The notes beneath the pieces were generated by a model that was given only the letters and a program-made list of their open reading frames with translations, was not told the origin of the DNA and ran no database searches. A DNA stretch of 64,000 nucleotides from Fibrobacter intestinalis (GTDB lineage: Bacteria; Fibrobacterota; Fibrobacteria; Fibrobacterales; Fibrobacteraceae): assembly GCF_900167415.1 (NCBI RefSeq), contig NZ_FUWU01000010.1, positions 1 through 64,000 of the forward strand, read 5' to 3'. Made by a program: the position numbers and the translations under genes. Numbering within the stretch: the first letter of the stretch is position 1; each line of letters opens with the position of its first letter. Below, in pieces: positions 16,063-39,344 of the stretch.

Positions 16063-16218
16063 GCCCATCCTAAAACCCGATTTGACCGATAAGCGGTAAA
16101 AAAACGGCAGCGACTATCGGCTTATTTCGCAGGCATCATCTTGTCGTTGCGAAGCAGCGAGCGCAGAACCTGACTTGCGCCTATCGCCCGCTTTCTCCAA
16201 AGTCTAGAAAGGGAATCA
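16063..16218. repeat. Left 156-bp direct repeat flanking the R-M island
   Basis: Identical over all 156 positions, by eye, to 25509-25664. It carries the last ~32 codons, stop and ~59 bp of downstream flank of the sulfatase gene, here detached from the rest of the gene. Sequences diverge immediately outside both ends. It marks one boundary of the inserted cluster. Confidence 0.95.
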
Positions 16219-25508: not shown

Positions 25509-25664
25509 GCCCATCCTAAAACCCGATTTGACCGATAAGCGGTAAAAAAACGGCAGCGACTATCGGCTTATTTCGCAGGCATCATCTTGTCGTTGCGAAG
25601 CAGCGAGCGCAGAACCTGACTTGCGCCTATCGCCCGCTTTCTCCAAAGTCTAGAAAGGGAATCA
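25509..25664. repeat. Right 156-bp direct repeat (native sulfatase 3' end)
   Basis: Perfect copy of 16063-16218. It spans the final codons of the sulfatase gene (stop at 25568-25570) and its 3' flank, including CCGATA (25532) pairing with TATCGG (25561) around a T7 run. This copy is continuous with the rest of the sulfatase gene and so represents the gene's own end. Confidence 0.95.
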
Positions 25665-28691: not shown

Positions 28692-28768
28692 ATTTTTGTT
28701 TTGACCGGCAAAGTCGTCAAAAATGAGGGAACAGTTGTAGCGGGATATGGAAAGAAAGACTTCGGCAT

Positions 28769-28940
28769 GATGCCGCGACCCATTTTTTGCTCGGGACGGC
28801 AAATGGCACGATGCCGCGACCCGTTTTTTGCTCGGGACGGCAAATGGCACGATGCCGCGACCCGTTTTTTGCTCGGGACGGCGAACGGCACGATGCCGCG
28901 ACCCGTTTTTTGCTCGGGACGGCAAATGGCACGATGCCGA
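28769..28940. repeat. 41-bp tandem repeat, four units
   Basis: Four head-to-tail units start at 28769, 28810, 28851 and 28892, plus an 8-bp remnant. The units differ at only a few positions. Each contains GCCGCGACCCG...CGGGACGGC, able to fold as a hairpin with a T-rich loop. It is intergenic, between the glycosyltransferase and an RNA-like element. The period is not a multiple of three, so a protein repeat is unlikely. Confidence 0.92.
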
Positions 28941-28969
28941 TTGCATTTAAAAGCTTACTGTTCCTAATG

Positions 28970-29205
28970 AAAAAAGGCGCGAGTCGTTGCATTTACCAAA
29001 GCGAGGCTCTCGAATGCCCATATTCGATAAACGCAAACGACCCACGCCCCGAAAGGGCTGTTGCCCAATCAGCTTAAAGCCGATACGACAAACCGAGATA
29101 TGCTGCAATACGGCCTGCCTGCGTGAGCGTTCGCCTTGTTCCCGAATATGAGAAATTTTCGAGATTTCGCTTTGAGAACAAGAGCTAAACTCTTTTATTT
29201 CTTAA
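28970..29205 (-). ncRNA. Candidate structured RNA element, copy A
   Basis: About 235 nt similar to copy B (35740-35995). On the minus strand both copies offer the same folds. The first is CUUGUUC/GAACAAG (plus 29176-29182 with 29135-29141) around a GAAAU/AUUUC hairpin. The second is the hairpin UCGGCU-UUA-AGCUGA (29083-29069), whose partner in copy B has two compensatory pair changes. The third is GGGC-AACA-GCCC. The fourth is a 20-bp terminal stem (29048-29028 with 28995-28976) followed by UUUUUU. Wobble pairs are G-U on this strand and would be A-C on the other, which fixes the direction. It lies about 290 bp upstream of the glycosyltransferase start. It matches no RNA class that I recognise. 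Confidence 0.65.
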
Positions 29206-29341: not shown

Positions 29342-29581
29342 ATGGAAGATTTAGTTCTAACAATTCCGACCCAGGATTTGGGTATTATGGAAACTTTGGC
29401 GGCTCGCATGGGCTGGACTGTGCGGTCTAAACGGAGCATTGTCCAGAAATTTGTCGATTCTTGCCCCAAGACTCCGATGATGACTGACGAAGAAATCGCC
29501 GCTGAAGTCAACGCTGTTCGATACGGGAAGTCGTATAAAAGCCCAGATTGTTTTTATAACCCCCTTAAAACTTGCCTTTGA
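29342..29581 (+). CDS. Small antitoxin-like protein, apparently unpaired
   Basis: 79 residues: MEDLVLTIPTQDLGIMETLA, a central basic part (MGWTVRSKRSIVQKF) and TDEEIAAEVNAVRYGK. The layout resembles antitoxin components found before toxin genes in Bacteroidota and Fibrobacterota, but I cannot name a family. GAGG lies 6 nt before the ATG; an ATG four codons upstream (29330) is less likely. No toxin follows directly; the next promoter begins inside its last codons. The C-terminal residues (NPLKTCL) come from the repeated promoter module, so the gene may have been trimmed by insertion of the Phd/ParE module. Confidence 0.55.
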   Translation: MEDLVLTIPTQDLGIMETLAARMGWTVRSKRSIVQKFVDSCPKTPMMTDEEIAAEVNAVRYGKSYKSPDCFYNPLKTCL

Positions 29582-29600
29582 TAGGCGAAAAAGGTATATT
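29572..29600 (+). promoter_or_regulatory. Promoter of the Phd/ParE-type module
   Basis: TTGCCT (29572-29577), exactly 17 bp, then TATATT (29595-29600). The surrounding ~40 bp recur almost unchanged before the acetyltransferase gene (36117-36158), so the promoter travels as a module. Confidence 0.75.
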
Positions 29601-29628
29601 TAGGGAAGTTTATCGACAGGAGTCAATC

Positions 29629-30276: not shown

Positions 30277-30654
30277 CAAATTTAAAAGGCGATGCCGAAA
30301 CGGTGTCCGGCATGACATATTGGGCGATTAGCGAATAACCTTGCGGTCTTCGGCCGTCATTTCGAGGAACTGGGCAACGGTCATCTGACCCTTGTCGCCT
30401 TCCTTTCTCTTGTTGACAGCGATAACGCCTTCAGCCTGTTCCTTTTCACCGACAATAATCTTGTAAGGCACCCTCTGGAGTTCGCACTGGCGGATCTTGT
30501 AGCCGAGCTTCTCATTGGACTCATCCACTTCCACACGGACGCCGGCGTTCACGAGTTCCTTTTCCACCTGCTTGGCGTAGTCGGCGAACTTTTCAGAAAT
30601 CGGGAGCACACGGGCCTGAACCGGAGCGAGCCACAGCGGGAAATCGCCCATGAA

Positions 30655-30727
30655 TTGGGCTTCGCCCCAGATGATGCGTCTCGGTCATGGTCAAACAAGT
30701 TTGACCGCGACACTCGACTTGTCATCT
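30655..30727. repeat. Palindromic insert 1 in the thrS remnant
   Basis: 73 bp absent from intact thrS, between 'cccatgaa' and 'tcttcga'. Contains TGGGC-TTC-GCCCCA-like and GGTCAAAC-AA-GTTTGACC (30689-30706) hairpins and the core word CTCGGTCATG. Confidence 0.8.
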
Positions 30728-30803
30728 GTCTTCGATAAGAATACCGAGGAAGCGTTCGATGGAACCCACGGCTGCGCGGTGCAGCATCACCGGAACGTGC
30801 TTT

Positions 30804-30934
30804 TGACGCCTTTTCCCCAAAGGGGATAACTCAACTAGGCCACTAAAGTGGCGAGTTTCGTATAGGCGTCTATGGCTGCGGCTCACCAATAAAAATACGC
30901 AAGCGTATTTTTGCTGGATTCGCCTTGCGCATTA
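30804..30934. repeat. Palindromic insert 2 in the thrS remnant
   Basis: About 131 bp. An outer GACGCC (30805) / GGCGTC (30865) pair encloses CCCC/GGGG and GCCACT/AGTGGC hairpins. A separate perfect hairpin, AAAATACGC-AA-GCGTATTTT, lies at 30892-30911. Confidence 0.8.
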
Positions 30935-31170
30935 CTGGTTGTCCTTGCCGACATATTCCGCACCGAGACGCATAGGCAAGTTGAAGTCCACCTGAATCGT
31001 TCCGCATTGCCAGTCACGACCGAGGCTGTCCTTCAGCGTGAATTCGAGCTTCGGGCCATAGAAGGCGCCTTCACCCGGGTTCAGAATGTAGTCGAGGCCG
31101 GCGAGCTTCGTCGCTTCGGCGAGGGCGGCTTCCGCCTTGTCCCAGATTTCGTTGGAACCCACGCGCTTTG

Positions 31171-31760: not shown

Positions 31761-32303
31761 CTACTTCTTTGTCATTTGAGAAAAACATTTCTTCACCTCG
31801 CATTTTTTTATTGAAACCAATAAATTTCTGGCATCATCCCACAAAATGACATCAGGGACATTAATCAACGGATGCAATCGCCTCGCTCTCTTATTACCTT
31901 TTTTATCAAACCAACAATTAATAACTCCGCAGGCATTCTTCGGCTCACTAATCGACTTTACGTTCATAAGGTCTATTTCTGATTTCGAAGCGTACTTTTT
32001 CAAATAATGAACTAATATTTTTTCCGCTTTAGAAATTGCAGAGGCGTCTTTTTTCGCGCTATTACTCCATTTGATTTTTCCAATCCAAAACAAGCGATTC
32101 TTTTCTCGAATATGCGTATAAAATTTATGCGTGCTAGTAAATCTACCCTTGCAGTTCTTACTTGTTTTTCCAATATAACGAAGTTTTATACTTTCCTTGC
32201 CTGCTATTCGAGATCCTGTTATAAGATAAAGAATGTTTGCTTGATTTGTTTGATTAGGGTCTTCATAGGGACCGCTCCACTCAATTATAAATGTTGGAAT
32301 CAT
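31761..32303 (-). CDS. GIY-YIG-like nuclease-domain protein
   Basis: The 180-residue protein has ILYLITGSRI followed by LRYIGKTSKNCKGRF, matching the GIY-YIG pattern (first strand L-Y-x-I; second strand Y-I-G-K-T; then Arg). The downstream catalytic Glu could be the E of KAEKILVHYL. The C-terminal part (PLINVPDVILWDDARN) is not recognised. A GAGGAATT ribosome site overlaps the stop of the preceding gene, so it is the last gene of a four-gene minus-strand operon. GIY-YIG domains occur in repair, restriction and homing enzymes; the role here is open. Confidence 0.6.
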   Translation of the reverse strand: MIPTFIIEWSGPYEDPNQTNQANILYLITGSRIAGKESIKLRYIGKTSKNCKGRFTSTHKFYTHIREKNRLFWIGKIKWSNSAKKDASAISKAEKILVHYLKKYASKSEIDLMNVKSISEPKNACGVINCWFDKKGNKRARRLHPLINVPDVILWDDARNLLVSIKKCEVKKCFSQMTKK

Positions 32304-32309
32304 AATTCC

Positions 32310-34592
32310 TCATTTAATATTATTCCAATCCAAAATGTCAACAAGAAAAACCGGGATAAACGCTGAATATGTATATGTATGGGAAATCATGGGTTCAAGA
32401 AGAATATTCATTCCAACCTCATCTGCAACTGATTCACATTGCTTAGAGAACTTCTCATAAATTGCCGATTTGCCCCATTTATGCTTTTCATAACCGATGA
32501 TTTTCCTTGGCGGTGTAAATGTACATCCCCTTATTTTTACTTTGGAAACCTTTGTATTTCCCTTATCATCAACTCGCGGTTTATTTGCTTGTACCGACAT
32601 TTCCACTTCACCTACATTTGAATCCCAATACTTAATAATACCGTTTATTTCGCCTTGATTGTTTAAAGGAAGAGTTATTTTTCTGTTTTTAGAAACAGAA
32701 GAAACGGCTGTTATTTTCCCTTTAGTGAAGGAAATTTTTTCCTTTCCTTCTTCATCTAATAAAGAATTTGGACTTAAATGTTTTAATTTACGCGTATTTT
32801 TTCCTAAAAGATAAAACATATTTTGAACATCAAGCAATGTCATTTCCTTATCTTCATCATCTAAAAATTCAATTACATAGTTTTCATTGTTATAATTGAT
32901 CTCGATTAGATTATTCAATTTAAAATAACCCTTTTTCTTACCATTTTCATAAGATGAATTATAATTAAGTTTATATTCAACCGGATCAAATCCGTATTCA
33001 ATTCCCGATGATATCTTTTTATTTTTTATCGTCGCTTCCAGATTAACAACTGAAAAAATTTCTTCTACATCATAGTCTTCATCATATAACGGACGCTTTC
33101 TTTCTCCTGTATAACTGAATAAGGGATAATAACATGACAAGGATCCATTCTTTTCAGGAAGTTTACTTAAATCGTTCATCTCAACCGAATAACTATTAGA
33201 TGATGTTTTGAAATAGCAATTCGGCAAAATATCACGACCTTGATGATAGTTATAAGTCCAATTCTTATACAAAACAGCAACAGAGTCCATTATGGATTGA
33301 TATTTTTTAACACACTCATTCAATTTAACATCATCTTCTTTTTTATAAATCTCCTGATATTCCCTAATATTACGAATTATCTCTACAAGAGAATACCCAT
33401 TTTCATATTGTCTTTCTATCTTTTTTATGAAATCGGGAATCGGCAAAAAAAGTTCCTGCAATTTTCGTTCTGCATCTACTTTATGTTTTCCTGCAGGGAA
33501 ATCTTTTAGATAATTTCCGTAAAGTTCATAAATTCTTGCGGTCTCCCAATAGGAATTTTCTAAAGAATCTTGGAACAGCGAGTAATCCTTTTCTAATAAA
33601 GTTTTTTCATTACACACCTCTTTTAAATATGTTAATCCTTTTCTTACTGCATCACTACTCACGAAACCTTGCATTATCCCTTTACAATCGTTATGAATTT
33701 GCTTATGTATTTGAATTTCTTTATCTATCGTTGTAATCCATTTAGGTGATAATATTTTCATATCCTCTTTTAGTTTATTCAAGTACTTTATATACTCATC
33801 CAAACCAATATCAGTTATAGCATTGGTTGTTAAAATGAAATTTTTCTTTCGTACAGATCCTGTATAACAATCTGATTTTAGGTCGGATTCTTTTCCTATT
33901 TTTTTATGTTCTTTGTTTATTCGATTATATTCTGCATCTATTTTTTCCCCAAGTTTTTCAAAGTAGCTTCTTTTTTCTGAAAACATAAACGACCAAAATA
34001 GTTCTTTTTTTGACCATCCCTCAAATTGTTTACTTTGCTTTATTCCAAAAAGATTTTCTGCAACAAGTGATGGCTGACCTATTTTTTCACCGTCAATAAC
34101 CATTCTGTTGCGGGGAGCTGCAAAAAATGATCTAATCGCCTCATCTTGCCACGTGCTTATATCTACATTACTCTCACAGAAAAAAATAAAATCACGATAC
34201 TTGTCCCAAAAAAGCAATGCGGCAAACAATTCATTCAAATCATTTTTCACTATAGAAAAATCATCCTGTTCAAAGGCTGAATCTACACTAGATTGTAAAA
34301 ACATACAATAGTTCTTTTCATAATCTCTTATCGGATAGGTTGATTTATTTTCAACAAATTTATTATACCATTCTTTAAAATAATCTCCACGAATCTTTTG
34401 ATAGCCAAAAAAACACGCAGGAATTTTTTCGTAGGAATTATAAGAACTAGGTTCCCCGCAAGCTTTTTTACAATCGCCCCAACTTCCTGAATTTACAACA
34501 ATACTATCAGAATTAATTTTAAAACAATCGTCCTGTGCGGATAATACAAAAGACACACAAGACAATAGAATTAATAAAAAATGATTTTTCAT
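32310..34592 (-). CDS. Large secreted protein of unknown function
   Basis: About 760 residues with a clear Sec signal peptide (MKNHFLLILLSCVSFVLSAQ), start supported by AAGGAGG 8 nt upstream. A TTG six codons earlier is less likely. The body is Lys/Glu/Asn-rich and AT-rich, with long helical stretches (about residues 200-480). A more strand-like C-terminal part includes KITAVSSVSKNRKITLPLNN and AVSSVS-type beta segments, and VRGCTF is nearby. No recognised domain or catalytic motif. It lies between a 144-residue unknown gene (stop 15 nt upstream) and the GIY-YIG gene. Confidence 0.7.
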   Translation of the reverse strand: MKNHFLLILLSCVSFVLSAQDDCFKINSDSIVVNSGSWGDCKKACGEPSSYNSYEKIPACFFGYQKIRGDYFKEWYNKFVENKSTYPIRDYEKNYCMFLQSSVDSAFEQDDFSIVKNDLNELFAALLFWDKYRDFIFFCESNVDISTWQDEAIRSFFAAPRNRMVIDGEKIGQPSLVAENLFGIKQSKQFEGWSKKELFWSFMFSEKRSYFEKLGEKIDAEYNRINKEHKKIGKESDLKSDCYTGSVRKKNFILTTNAITDIGLDEYIKYLNKLKEDMKILSPKWITTIDKEIQIHKQIHNDCKGIMQGFVSSDAVRKGLTYLKEVCNEKTLLEKDYSLFQDSLENSYWETARIYELYGNYLKDFPAGKHKVDAERKLQELFLPIPDFIKKIERQYENGYSLVEIIRNIREYQEIYKKEDDVKLNECVKKYQSIMDSVAVLYKNWTYNYHQGRDILPNCYFKTSSNSYSVEMNDLSKLPEKNGSLSCYYPLFSYTGERKRPLYDEDYDVEEIFSVVNLEATIKNKKISSGIEYGFDPVEYKLNYNSSYENGKKKGYFKLNNLIEINYNNENYVIEFLDDEDKEMTLLDVQNMFYLLGKNTRKLKHLSPNSLLDEEGKEKISFTKGKITAVSSVSKNRKITLPLNNQGEINGIIKYWDSNVGEVEMSVQANKPRVDDKGNTKVSKVKIRGCTFTPPRKIIGYEKHKWGKSAIYEKFSKQCESVADEVGMNILLEPMISHTYTYSAFIPVFLVDILDWNNIK

Positions 34593-34606
34593 ACTAAAAG
34601 CCTCCT

Positions 34607-35041
34607 TCAAATTCTATTGTTAATCAACTGTAAAGAATCGTGGTTTATACATCCTTTCTCATCAAGAAACTCATCCCATGTGAGGAAATCAAAAACCTCG
34701 GCAAAAGCTTCCTTGAACGAATCGTCTATCTCGAATAATTTTTCATTTGATGTTACACAATTTAGCGAGCTATCTTCATTAATTCGCATAATTTGTATCC
34801 ACGAAAGATTGATATTTTGAGCAATTTCACGATCTCTATGTTTTACATCAGGTGCAATAAGACCATCTGCTTTTGTATGTACAATTAAAACAGGCGCAAC
34901 AGGAATTTCTCCACATACTGAATAAAAGCGCTTTAAATCAGGCTCAATTTTCAATTTTGAAACGTCCGTATTCCGTTGCCAAGATGTTAAGACGCGAATC
35001 GGCGTTTTTTCTGCAGAAGTGATGTAATCAAGAAAATTCAT
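34607..35041 (-). CDS. Hypothetical cytoplasmic protein
   Basis: 144 residues, acidic, no signal peptide: MNFLDYITSAEKTPIRVL, then a strand-rich centre (PVAPVLIVHTKADGLIAPDV; LSWIQIMRI) and an acidic end (DFLTWDEFLDEKGCINHD). AGAGGTACAAC lies before the ATG. The overall style recalls SMI1/KNR4-like or other immunity proteins, but no motif settles this. It is second in the operon, 30 nt after the FISUMP gene. Confidence 0.65.
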   Translation of the reverse strand: MNFLDYITSAEKTPIRVLTSWQRNTDVSKLKIEPDLKRFYSVCGEIPVAPVLIVHTKADGLIAPDVKHRDREIAQNINLSWIQIMRINEDSSLNCVTSNEKLFEIDDSFKEAFAEVFDFLTWDEFLDEKGCINHDSLQLINNRI

Positions 35042-35070: not shown

Positions 35071-35664
35071 TTAATCTTTCATGCACCGCACATTGAAGTA
35101 ATAGCCGTCCTTAAGAAAAGAGTGTGGTGGATTGATAAAAATCCCCTGCACGGCTTCAAAGCGAACAGCAAACGCCTTTTGCCTTCGTGGAACCATACTT
35201 TTTAGAAAACTATCGCTTCGTCTTCCATTCGTCCAAGAATTATTGTCATCGCTAGAAGTCCAAAAAACAGCCGTTTTATCCGTATCAAAGCAGCGATCTT
35301 CTTCATAACAATGTCCTAGAAGAACTATGCCAAAGTTTCTATCAACGTTATCAAAAATATCGTTCCATTCCTTTTTAGAGGGAAGGTGCCAACCTCTTGG
35401 ACAAGCCTGTTCAGCCATATCAAAATTGTAATACCGTCCTAATCCACACAATTTCTGTATGTCATTGATACAACGGCTCCCGCGAACTTTATATCGCAAA
35501 TTTTCCGCCATCCATTCGCTACGACCTATCTTAACCGTAGTGTAATGTTCGCCATCTCTGGAATCAGCGAATGAGCCTGCATAAACGCAAGCACACGAAA
35601 TAGTCAGCATAAAAAGCAAAAGTTGCTTTATGCAATTTTGAAACACATACCTAGCTATTCCCAT
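35071..35664 (-). CDS. FISUMP-domain secreted protein
   Basis: The 197-residue protein has a signal peptide (QLLLFMLTISCACVYA, cleavage about residue 30) and one Fibrobacter succinogenes major paralogous domain. The hallmarks are in order: YTTVKIGRSEWMAENLRYKV, GRYYNFDMAEQACPRGWHLP, KEWNDIFDNV, AVFWTSSDDN and GYYFNVRCMKD at the end. Cys pairs probably form disulfides. The domain is highly expanded in Fibrobacter and its function is unproven; cell-surface binding is often proposed. GAGG lies 9 nt before the ATG, within a possible hairpin. It is first in the operon down to 31761. Confidence 0.9.
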   Translation of the reverse strand: MGIARYVFQNCIKQLLLFMLTISCACVYAGSFADSRDGEHYTTVKIGRSEWMAENLRYKVRGSRCINDIQKLCGLGRYYNFDMAEQACPRGWHLPSKKEWNDIFDNVDRNFGIVLLGHCYEEDRCFDTDKTAVFWTSSDDNNSWTNGRRSDSFLKSMVPRRQKAFAVRFEAVQGIFINPPHSFLKDGYYFNVRCMKD

Positions 35665-35673
35665 AGAACCAAG

Positions 35674-35692
35674 CCTCTTTCATTACAAGAGG
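35674..35692 (-). promoter_or_regulatory. Hairpin masking the FISUMP ribosome-binding site
   Basis: On the minus strand CCTCTT pairs with AAGAGG across a 7-nt loop. The AAGAGG arm contains the Shine-Dalgarno of the gene starting at 35664. It lies about 50 nt downstream of the U tract of the structured RNA. Confidence 0.45.
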
Positions 35693-35739
35693 TTTACTCC
35701 CATTCTGCAAGGATATCACACCAAATTTTGTGGGGGCAC

Positions 35740-35995
35740 AAAAAAAGGCGCAGATCGTTGCATTTACCACCTTGAGGCTCAGCATGCCTAATGAACGATA
35801 AATACAAACGACCCACGCCCCAAACGGGCTGTTGCCCTTGGTCATACGACCAAAGACCGACTAAAAAGTCGGTATGACAAACTGAAGCATACCGCAAAAC
35901 GGCATACCTGCGTGAGCGTTCGTCTTGTTCCCGTTCATTCGAAATTTGCTGATTTCAAGGTGAGAACAAGAGCAAAAACTCCTTTACTCTTTAAA
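35740..35995 (-). ncRNA. Candidate structured RNA element, copy B
   Basis: About 250 nt on the minus strand, upstream of the FISUMP operon, ending in UUUUUUU at 35746-35740. Its folds match copy A. CUUGUUC/GAACAAG is at 35970-35964 with 35930-35924. The hairpin ACCGACU-UUUU-AGUCGGU spans 35873-35856. GGGC-AACA-GCCC follows, and the terminal stem pairs 35819-35799 with 35766-35747. It also has an extra GGUC/GACC hairpin absent from copy A. The word CTGCGTGAGCGTTCG is conserved in both copies. The U tract 76 nt before the FISUMP start allows either a stand-alone small RNA or a leader with a terminator. Confidence 0.65.
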
Positions 35996-36125
35996 AATAA
36001 CATAAAATTATGCGGAATGACCAAAAAGTCTACAAAAAGGAGCAATTTTGTGTAGAAAACGGCGAATTTGTGCCATTTTGTAAAGCAAACGGGCTATTCC
36101 TACTTGAAATGGACCTCCCTAAAAC

Positions 36126-36154
36126 TTGCCTTTATGGGGCGAAAAAGGTATATT
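36126..36154 (+). promoter_or_regulatory. Promoter of the acetyltransferase/small-protein pair
   Basis: TTGCCT (36126-36131), 17 bp, TATATT (36149-36154). Near-identical to the promoter at 29572-29600 including flanking 'aaaacttgccttt' and 'gcgaaaaaggtatattta'. 36000-36117 holds no recognised gene. Confidence 0.75.
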
Positions 36155-36180
36155 TAAGATGATAAGGATAATGCAACCCA

Positions 36181-36705
36181 ATGGAAATTGACATCCAAAT
36201 AGATTCCCTAACGAATTGCCTAGTGTGCCGAGAAACTGGAGAGCAACTCGATACCGAATTTCGACTTGTCCTAAAAACTATTTCAAAAAAGGATGCAGCA
36301 GCACTACAACGAAAAGGATGGAAATTCGATTGGAGCATTCCCCATCAACATAATTATGAGGTTTACGAGCTACTGTTAAAAGGCGACCCACAAGTGCAGG
36401 GGATGATCGCCCTAAAACACATCCGCGATCAATTCTATACGCATGTAGATATCGTAGAAGCAGCTCCAGAGAATATCGGACATTTAGGGAAATACAAAGG
36501 TGTAGGAGCGCACCTCTTTGCAATAGCCTGCAAACTAAGCTGGGATGTCGGTAACGAGGGCTATGTTCAGTTTACTGCGAAAACGAACCTTGTAGAACAT
36601 TATCGTGAAACTTTAGGAGCGCGAAACATCGATTCTCAAAAAATGTACATAGACAGCTATGGAGCATTAAAACTAATCAAAACCTATTTCCCCGAGGAGG
36701 CATAA
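36181..36705 (+). CDS. GNAT-like acetyltransferase
   Basis: 174 residues. The second half has a GNAT-like acetyl-CoA region, KYKGVGAHLFAIACKLSWD, followed by GYVQFTAKTNLVEHYRETLGA and a terminal YGALKLI. The N-terminal part contains VCRETGEQLDTEFRLVL. The usual Q/R-x-x-G-x-G/A loop is weakened (KGVGAH), so the substrate and even activity are uncertain. A 6-codon open frame at 36171-36191, placed at better distance from the AAGGA site, overlaps the start and may couple translation. A 70-residue gene follows immediately; together they may be a toxin-antitoxin-like pair. Confidence 0.65.
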   Translation: MEIDIQIDSLTNCLVCRETGEQLDTEFRLVLKTISKKDAAALQRKGWKFDWSIPHQHNYEVYELLLKGDPQVQGMIALKHIRDQFYTHVDIVEAAPENIGHLGKYKGVGAHLFAIACKLSWDVGNEGYVQFTAKTNLVEHYRETLGARNIDSQKMYIDSYGALKLIKTYFPEEA

Positions 36706-37310: not shown

Positions 37311-39248
37311 TTAGCGAACAACCTTGCGGTCGTCTTCCGTCATCTTGAGGAAGTCTGCGACCTTCATGTTGCCCTTGTCGCCGTCCTTACGCTTACGCAC
37401 GGACACGACACCATCGGCAACTTCCTTCTCACCCACGATGAGGAGGTACGGCACCTTCTGCAATTCGCACTGGCGGATCTTGTAGCCGAGTTTCTCGTTG
37501 CTTTCGTCGACTTCCACGCGGACGCCGGCGTTCACGAGTTCCTTCTCGACCTGCTTGGCATAGTCAACAAACTTCTCGGAAATCGGGAGCACGCGGGCCT
37601 GCACCGGAGCGAGCCACAGCGGAAAATCGCCCATGAACTCTTCGATGAGGATGCCGAGGAAACGTTCAATGGAACCGACTGCCGCACGGTGGAGCATCAC
37701 AGGAACGTGTTTCTGGTTGTCCTTGCCGACATATTCCGCACCGAGACGCATAGGCAAGTTGAAGTCCACCTGAATCGTTCCGCATTGCCAGTCACGACCG
37801 AGAGAATCCTTCAAAGTGAATTCCAGTTTCGGGCCATAGAAAGCGCCTTCGCCCGGATTCAGTTCATAGTCGAGTCCAGCCAGCTTTGTCGCCTGTTCCA
37901 GCGAGGCTTCCGCCTTGTCCCAAAGTTCGTCCGAACCCACGCGTTTTGCCGGACGGGTCGAGAACTTGACCTTGACATCGTCAAACCCAAAGTCGTGGTA
38001 GATTTCCTTGACTAGGGCGCAGAAGTTGGCGACTTCGCTTGCAATCTGGTCTTCGGTGCAGAAAATGTGTGCGTCATCCTGAACAAATCCGCGGACGCGC
38101 ATCAAACCATGCATGGTTCCTGCGGGTTCGTAGCGATGGCACTTGCCAAATTCCGCAAGGCGCATAGGCAAATCCCGCCAGCTGCGAAGCTGGGAATTGA
38201 AAATCAAAATGTGGCAGGGGCAATTCATCGGCTTCACCGCCATTTCCACGTCGCCCGCCATCGTTTTGAACATGTTCTCGTTGTATTTGTCGGCGTGCCC
38301 GGATTTCAACCACAAAACCTTGTTCACGATTTCCGGCGTAATCACTTCCTGGTAGCCGCGATTGTCGATTTTCCCACGGATATAATCCTTGAGGGCATTG
38401 ACCATCTTGGTTCCCTTCGGATGCCAGAACACCATTCCCGGAGAGTGGTCTTCGATGTGGTAAAGGTCCATTTCCTTGCCGATTTTCCGATGGTCGCGCT
38501 TGGCGGCTTCTTCCAGCTGCTTGACATAGATTTCAAGGCCTTCCTTGTCGGCAAAGCAGGTTCCGTAAACGCGGGTCAGCTGGTCGCTTTTCTGATCGCC
38601 GTGCCAGTAAGCGCCGGAGAGGGAAAGAATTTTGAAACTTTTGAGTTTTCCCGTACTCGGCACATGGGGACCCGCACACAAGTCTTCCCAATTTTTTCCC
38701 GGTTCGCCTGTAACATAAAAACTCAACGTGCCATCCGAATTTTCGCGGGCAAGGGCGCGCTCCGCATTGTCTGTCTTGTATTTATCGCCTTCGGTACGCT
38801 TCAAGCCTTCTTCGCCGCTGACTTCGATACGAGTAAACGGGCGATCTTCCTTGATGATTTCCTTCATGCGCTTTTCGATTTTCGGGAAATCTTCTTCCTT
38901 AATCGGCGTCGGCGTCATCAAATCGTAATAGAAACCTTTTTCGATGGCGGGGCCATACGCCAACTTTGTCCCCGGAAACAAATCGCAGATGGCTTCGGCG
39001 AGCACATGGCTGCAGCTGTGGCGCAGGAGCATTAAGGCATCCGGGTCGTCATTGTTCGGCGTGATAATTTTGATGGTGCCGCTTTCGGTCAGCGGACGGG
39101 AAAGGTCCAGAACCTTGTTCCCCAATTTGACGCCAAGAGCTTTACGGGCGAGTCCTTCGGAAAGGCCTTTCGCGATTTCAAGGCCGGTGGTGCCCGATGC
39201 TACGGAACGTACGGAGCCATCGGGGAAAGTGAGTTCGATTTGAGACAT
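37311..39248 (-). CDS. thrS: Threonyl-tRNA synthetase
   Basis: Charges tRNA-Thr. 645 residues from MSQIELTFPDGSVRSV, chosen because AAAGGAAAATATT precedes this ATG; the frame extends 32 codons further but lacks family similarity. Domains in order: TGS (about 1-60), editing domain with HSCSHVLAEAI, class II catalytic core (MNCPCHILIFNS, FGKCHRYEPAGTMHGLMRVRG region, [11 protein letters not shown]) and the anticodon-binding domain (WLAPVQARVLPIS). All zinc-ligand regions appear present. It is the functional copy; a truncated second copy lies at 30328-31583. A GGGCG/CGCCC hairpin lies in its leader, near 39270. Confidence 0.96.
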   Translation of the reverse strand: MSQIELTFPDGSVRSVASGTTGLEIAKGLSEGLARKALGVKLGNKVLDLSRPLTESGTIKIITPNNDDPDALMLLRHSCSHVLAEAICDLFPGTKLAYGPAIEKGFYYDLMTPTPIKEEDFPKIEKRMKEIIKEDRPFTRIEVSGEEGLKRTEGDKYKTDNAERALARENSDGTLSFYVTGEPGKNWEDLCAGPHVPSTGKLKSFKILSLSGAYWHGDQKSDQLTRVYGTCFADKEGLEIYVKQLEEAAKRDHRKIGKEMDLYHIEDHSPGMVFWHPKGTKMVNALKDYIRGKIDNRGYQEVITPEIVNKVLWLKSGHADKYNENMFKTMAGDVEMAVKPMNCPCHILIFNSQLRSWRDLPMRLAEFGKCHRYEPAGTMHGLMRVRGFVQDDAHIFCTEDQIASEVANFCALVKEIYHDFGFDDVKVKFSTRPAKRVGSDELWDKAEASLEQATKLAGLDYELNPGEGAFYGPKLEFTLKDSLGRDWQCGTIQVDFNLPMRLGAEYVGKDNQKHVPVMLHRAAVGSIERFLGILIEEFMGDFPLWLAPVQARVLPISEKFVDYAKQVEKELVNAGVRVEVDESNEKLGYKIRQCELQKVPYLLIVGEKEVADGVVSVRKRKDGDKGNMKVADFLKMTEDDRKVVR

Positions 39249-39344
39249 AATATTTTCCTTTGGTGGGCGGTTCTCGCCCGGTTCCCCAGAAATACGACAT
39301 CTGGTGGTGCGCTGTAAGATAATAAAATCTGAAAGTCCCAGCAA

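Follow-up and report, generated by a model that had tools for sequence, protein, structure and literature searches.

Expression of restriction-modification (R-M) systems is usually seen as a matter of proteins, promoters or phase variation. Controller (C) proteins, for example, control R-M expression and are encoded within one system. Outside the field of R-M systems, the trp and his leaders, T-box leaders and SAM riboswitches are RNAs that precede a gene and form mutually exclusive terminator and antiterminator helices. The plasmid copy-control RNAs of ColE1 (RNAI/RNAII) and of pT181 have hairpins with complementary, rapidly diversifying loops, and the pT181 element uses attenuation. The AbiF system of C. 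difficile, which includes an RNA (PMC12373285), and the type III toxin-antitoxin system AvcID (PMC10511110) are reported as cases in which an RNA beside a defence gene regulates or neutralises the partner protein.

Here we describe a structured RNA of Fibrobacter intestinalis, two copies of which (A and B) lie in the 64,000-nucleotide stretch analysed in this work (contig NZ_FUWU01000010.1, positions 1 to 64,000; hereafter the window). Like the trp/his, T-box and SAM leaders, it stands before a gene and has putative terminator and antiterminator helices that exclude each other. Unlike them, it has no Rfam match, no recognised leader peptide and no T-box sequence, and its two loops, hypervariable from copy to copy, pair mutually along about 26 bp. 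In its complementary, fast-evolving loops it is closer to the ColE1 and pT181 RNAs than to riboswitches, but its partners are located on one transcript strand, in cis and on the chromosome, and no replication function is seen. While a C protein serves one system, this RNA is common to many unrelated R-M systems. It differs from the reported AbiF and AvcID RNAs in its diverse downstream genes (methyltransferases and lipoproteins) and in its terminator-like 3' end. The RNA is attenuator-like in its working but belongs to no curated family. No description of it was found in a literature search with most subscription papers and preprints outside its range, and the family is apparently undescribed so far. 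We regard the RNA as a cis-acting transcription-attenuator leader and as the first described example of a family in the Fibrobacteraceae; this reading of the sequence has a good probability of being right. The leader probably turns defence and surface genes of the bacterium on or off.

Anatomy of the leader at the FISUMP locus

Covariance models for the 3' hairpin (R1) and the 5' hairpin (R2) were built from ten copies found by BLAST. Copy B occupies positions 35989-35740 of the minus strand, as do all its parts given below; its sequence was read directly and ends in a seven-U tract. Hairpin 1 (HP1, 35911..35989; R2 score 88.8 bits, consistent with folds and pair counts) consists of the 5' strand A (35981-35962, GAGUUUUUGCUCUUGUUCUC), hypervariable loop 1 (35961-35933) and the 3' strand B (35932-35911, GGGAACAAGACGAACGCUCACG). 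It is followed by a variable insert with extra hairpins (35824..35910) and by hairpin 2 (HP2, 35742..35823; R1 score 79.9 bits, consistent with folds and rod pair counts), in which strand C (35821-35797), hypervariable loop 2 (35796-35769) and strand D (35768-35747) lead to the U tract (35740..35746, read directly). The helix C:D is the stem of a putative intrinsic terminator, and C:B is an alternative (antiterminator) helix. The original prediction of a structured RNA at this place is borne out far beyond chance by the fold of copy B (z = -7.2; none of 100 shuffles was equally good), by copies throughout the genome and by a strand-dependent fold (see below). Just upstream of copy B there is no good consensus promoter. 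At the gathering level, Rfam gave no match in the window; a weak match to RAGATH-19 beside the RNA is on the opposite strand (19.3 bits against a threshold of 85.6). No relevant family was found at gathering or relaxed thresholds, and the other copies gave nothing relevant either.

The FISUMP start codon (ATG at 35664) is 75 nt past the U tract, which had rightly been placed before the gene, with a distance given as 76 nt. This first operon gene (35071..35664, minus strand) encodes a FISUMP-domain protein of 197 aa that is predicted to be exported (PF09603, E = 3.1e-18; TIGR02145, E = 5.4e-31). The remaining genes of the likely operon (31761..35041, minus strand) encode proteins of 144 aa (34607-35041), 766 aa (32310-34610) and 180 aa (31761-32303) with no known domain or defence family; they may belong to a conflict or surface system that is still uncharacterised. 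Behind another copy of the leader (L120), the 144- and 766-aa genes are again found as a pair. PADLOC found no match in the window operon or in other operons with leaders of type II (defined below).

The 3' arm of a hairpin CCTCTTGTAATGAAAGAGG / CCUCUUGUAAUGAAAGAGG (CCUCUU...AAGAGG; 35692-35674, minus strand, read directly) contains GAGG, a Shine-Dalgarno-like element 9 nt upstream of the FISUMP start codon. The hairpin, which had been foreseen as CCTCTT/AAGAGG, is present in copy B and kept in the orthologous leaders L146 and L166. Pairing of the ribosome site is on average 0.76 for leader genes vs 0.61 for 233 control genes from the same loci (p = 1.7e-7); this enrichment across the family is real but modest.

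Copy A (29201-28970, minus strand) has the same parts: HP1 (29122..29201; R2, 84.6 bits), the putative terminator hairpin HP2 (28971..29052; R1, 81.2 bits) and a U tract (28970-28975). As had been noted earlier, it lies upstream of a gene with tandem repeats in between: 41-bp repeats (28764-28968) separate it from a glycosyltransferase-family gene. Copy A looks like a displaced or decayed leader, with these repeats as the probable cause of the displacement.

Several other repeats were seen in the window. A fragment similar to part of thrS is found close to copy A, and the intact thrS gene (677 aa) is at 37311-39344; positions 30328-31170 and 37311-37948 belong to a duplicated segment with a spacing of about 6.8-7.0 kb. 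An exact direct repeat of 156 nt is found at 16063-16218 and 25509-25664, 9.4 kb apart. A 44-bp promoter-like repeat ending in AAAAAGGTATATTTA (29559-29602 and 36113-36156) precedes a Phd/YefM-ParE toxin-antitoxin pair and a 174-aa gene, and may be one more dispersed module carrying a promoter for accessory genes; a search with one gapped pattern revealed no further exact copies among the loci fetched. A protein that begins like that of the 174-aa gene (MEIDIQIDSLTNCLVCRETGEQ; 36181-36705, plus strand, beside copy B) is encoded by a later operon gene behind the leaders L093 and L153.

Distribution of the family

The genome contains about 11 copies according to BLAST and 25 according to model R1. 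In the phylum, R1 matches 92 of 168 genomes; many of the genomes sampled are metagenome-assembled, and open reading frames were called by a simple script. The positive genomes include nearly all those listed for genus g2, the genus of the window and two more genera of this family; beyond these there are one weak match within the family and two borderline matches in other families. Similarly, a DNA pattern for strand C was found in 104 stretches of named genomes, and almost all of those listed are from Fibrobacter or Fibrobacteraceae. The few stretches labelled as Bacteroidales or Gastranaerophilales may be binning errors or cases of transfer; one such contig has 1.6 kb in common with a Fibrobacter locus at 97.7% identity. 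The pattern is absent from viral contigs, and a viral origin was rejected on this ground.

HP1 is located upstream of HP2 in 97 of 100 R1 matches. All 84 non-redundant copies have at least four U in the last five nucleotides of HP2, and in all 84 the fold of the RNA strand is better than that of the complementary strand. The last two regularities indicate that the constraint acts on RNA.

Two competing folds

Sequence comparison and energy calculations support two folds that exclude each other, are conserved and are nearly equal in energy, with loop pairing specific to each copy. In state T, HP1 (A:B) is followed by HP2 (C:D) and the U tract. In state R, strand B pairs with strand C and loop 1 with loop 2, so that one long rod is formed.

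Covariation, computed on copies within one genome, is found for both folds. Both sides were changed in 20 of 36 rod pairs, with a score of 0.507 vs 0.243 +/- 0.020 for shuffled and about 0.1 for slid pairings; for the two hairpins, this was the case in 13 of 41 pairs (0.289 vs 0.217 +/- 0.013 shuffled). The MAFFT alignment of the divergent set A6 misaligned the loops, so this alignment was left out of the covariation analysis and an alignment-free test was used instead. In this test loop 1 pairs on average with loop 2 of its own copy at -33.5 kcal/mol and with those of other copies at -12.7 kcal/mol, and its own partner is the best one in 80 of 84 copies. Among 2223 loop pairs, 193 are G.U pairs. 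Covariation in inverted repeats can also result from template switching in replication, but this process would not preserve G.U pairs, strand bias, U tracts or gene linkage.

The energy of the rod minus that of the two hairpins is -3.8 +/- 7.0 kcal/mol for real copies and +17.3 +/- 6.8 kcal/mol for chimeras of two copies. The full-length minimum is the rod in 59 of 84 copies and the two hairpins in the other 25; when the RNA is truncated before strand D, every one of the 84 has the rod as its minimum. With minimum free energies taken as a proxy for co-transcriptional folding, near-equal energies and a rod that dominates before strand D appears are what a terminator/antiterminator switch requires.

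A different switch had been proposed earlier, based on two overlapping 5' stems, AAGAG/CUCUU and CUUGUUC/GAACAAG. Both elements are in copy B and do have CUU in common. As the switch they were rejected, since the 5' GAG pairs into HP1 too and the competition of the rod with the two hairpins is much better supported.

Genes downstream of the leader

The first downstream gene is co-oriented with the leader in 93 of 98 copies (p = 4.5e-22), with upstream genes divided 48:48, and usually begins 50-350 nt after the U tract. In an independent sample obtained by pattern search, 69 of 73 downstream genes are co-oriented, and 45 of the 73 have methyltransferase or R-M motifs according to a crude regular expression. 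Pfam families of 97 first genes are led by C5 methylase (11), N6_Mtase (11), Eco57I (8), EcoRI methylase (7) and N6_N4_Mtase (7), followed by MmeI methylase (6), FISUMP (5), DUF4417 (4), D12 methylase (4) and Tsp45I restriction enzyme (3); a protein can match more than one family, and these counts are solid while the motif-based classing is rough. In the upstream control, no methyltransferase family is among the leading ones. In this genome, coordinate comparison places the leader before 11 of the 41 loci that encode methyltransferases of four families (hypergeometric p = 6e-15, assuming 2800 genes). The neighbourhoods are thus not random; random ones had been named in the original prediction as a result that would speak against it.

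Roughly 40% of the targets are DNA methyltransferases of R-M systems, and the methyltransferase is usually the first gene of a leader-bearing R-M operon. These methyltransferases are unrelated (C5, N6, EcoRI-type, Dam-type, type I and type III). The other targets include FISUMP and lipoprotein operons; a few copies, namely copy A and some at contig ends, have no plausible adjacent target. The proposal of a leader of the FISUMP operon thus stands as regards the leader position and the terminator-type anatomy, though FISUMP genes are one of two main classes: the family leads R-M genes in the main, and FISUMP genes less often.

Three forms of the leader

In type I leaders HP1 and HP2 are 3-7 nt apart; they precede R-M genes and some lipoproteins. 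Type II leaders, which include both copies in the window, have an insert of about 70-190 nt and are found mostly before genes of FISUMP or exported proteins. Type III leaders have the type II layout and a second hairpin, HP1', behind the terminator, and nearly always precede R-M genes. By a crude count, an R-M motif is present downstream in 17 of 24 type III cases vs 5 of 32 type II cases (Fisher p = 6.5e-5). From a recurring FISUMP cluster, 19 proteins at 15 loci are encoded behind types II and I. About 50 nt upstream of HP1, many type I leaders (L087, L091, L103, L122 and others) also carry a further conserved 5' element, GACAUAG-C-hairpin-G-(C)GACCGG, which was not seen in types II and III.

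Hypervariable loops

The loops change much faster than their surroundings. Between the FISUMP leader of the window and its relative L166, the gene and the spacer are each 94% identical and the stems 95%, whereas the loops are 58% identical, which is the level of unrelated copies (59%). The pair L087/L113 is similar in this respect (gene 94%, loops 49%), and the loops are less alike than the stems in 23 of 25 homologous pairs. Loop tips come from a limited recurring set, for example CUCGAC, CUGGUAA, CUAGAC and CUUCGAC. Drift alone does not easily account for a joint change of two loops amid conserved surroundings; possible causes are gene conversion among paralogous leaders, template switching and selection for orthogonality.

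Discussion

The sequence combines a 5' co-oriented position, an HP2 stem followed by a U tract and a conserved competing helix B:C, as expected of an attenuator. In the mechanism we propose, RNA polymerase would make HP1 first. As strand C emerges, B could exchange A for C as its partner, and loop 2 could zip onto loop 1 to form the rod; with C hidden in the rod no terminator stem C:D could form, and transcription would read through into the gene. If HP1 stays closed instead, C would wait for D, and the HP2 stem with the U tract would stop transcription before the gene. In copy B and many other copies the ribosome-site hairpin may be a second gate, acting on translation. The operons so governed would be R-M operons, usually with the methyltransferase first, and operons of exported proteins or lipoproteins (FISUMP). 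We infer that HP2 terminates transcription in the cell, that the choice between the folds is regulated or stochastic, and that expression is affected. The earlier idea of terminator-type control with a second translation switch therefore survives in its putative terminator and in the ribosome-site hairpin of copy B, with the two hairpins and the rod, and not the 5' stems, as the alternative states. About half of the targets are not R-M genes, so a single physiological signal is not obvious. RfaH/UpxY-like antitermination by an extra NusG paralogue was rejected: no genome examined, whether RNA-bearing or RNA-free, has more than one NusG-domain match. The RNA is also distinct from T-box leaders, with no model match and no tRNA synthetase or amino acid genes among its targets (thrS and its fragment are neighbours only). 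As for type III toxin-antitoxin systems (ToxI/ToxN), no ToxN-like family is among the leading downstream families, and the RNA is not a tandem repeat.

In type III leaders the complementarity of HP1' to loop 2 is specific to the copy (-29.3 kcal/mol in cis vs -18.3 in trans; 0 of 20000 permutations). This, a strong terminator and AT-rich, promoter-like sequence just upstream of other copies, as judged by eye, would suit a free-standing small RNA of about 170-260 nt with its own promoter and terminator, acting in trans or, in type III, on its own mRNA via HP1'. We consider this unlikely, as near-universal co-orientation and fixed short spacing point to cis action and the loops pair within their own copy, not with other copies. 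Somewhat less probable still is a metabolite- or protein-sensing riboswitch with HP1 (conserved strands A and B) as the binding domain and HP2 as the expression platform. Strands A-D are indeed conserved in sequence, a terminator platform is present, and for methyltransferases a ligand such as SAM or SAH would make sense; however, the need of strands to pair with two partners largely explains their conservation, the loops are hypervariable, exported FISUMP proteins are among the targets, and no Rfam riboswitch matches. A DNA-level element (mobile cassette, recombination site or cruciform) with a captured promoter, its complementarity kept by template switching, would fit 25 dispersed copies, the near-palindromic architecture and the joint replacement of both loops between near-identical loci, but is very improbable given the strand-dependent fold quality in 84 of 84 copies, the G.U pairs, the U tract in every copy, the position nearly always directly before a co-oriented gene, and the absence from viral contigs by the pattern used. 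Invertible DNA in particular was rejected, as no copy has the B-C segment inverted.

Within the attenuator reading, we tentatively suggest, as a possibility that we rate well below even, that the loops are private addresses. The leader, or its short terminated RNA, would recognise its own transcript only (in type III also via HP1'), each operon would be autoregulated and insulated from some two dozen paralogues, and loop diversity would be selected as in plasmid incompatibility.

Fibrobacter is a main cellulose degrader of herbivore guts. The copy-specific loops lend themselves to testing RNA orthogonality, and the nearly isoenergetic folds make up a natural collection of more than 80 switches on which co-transcriptional folding could be studied. 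If the attenuator reading is true, the defence and surface operons of Fibrobacter would be run as one RNA-controlled set; if the loops are private addresses as well, every such R-M or surface-protein operon would have an RNA-based autoregulation of its own.
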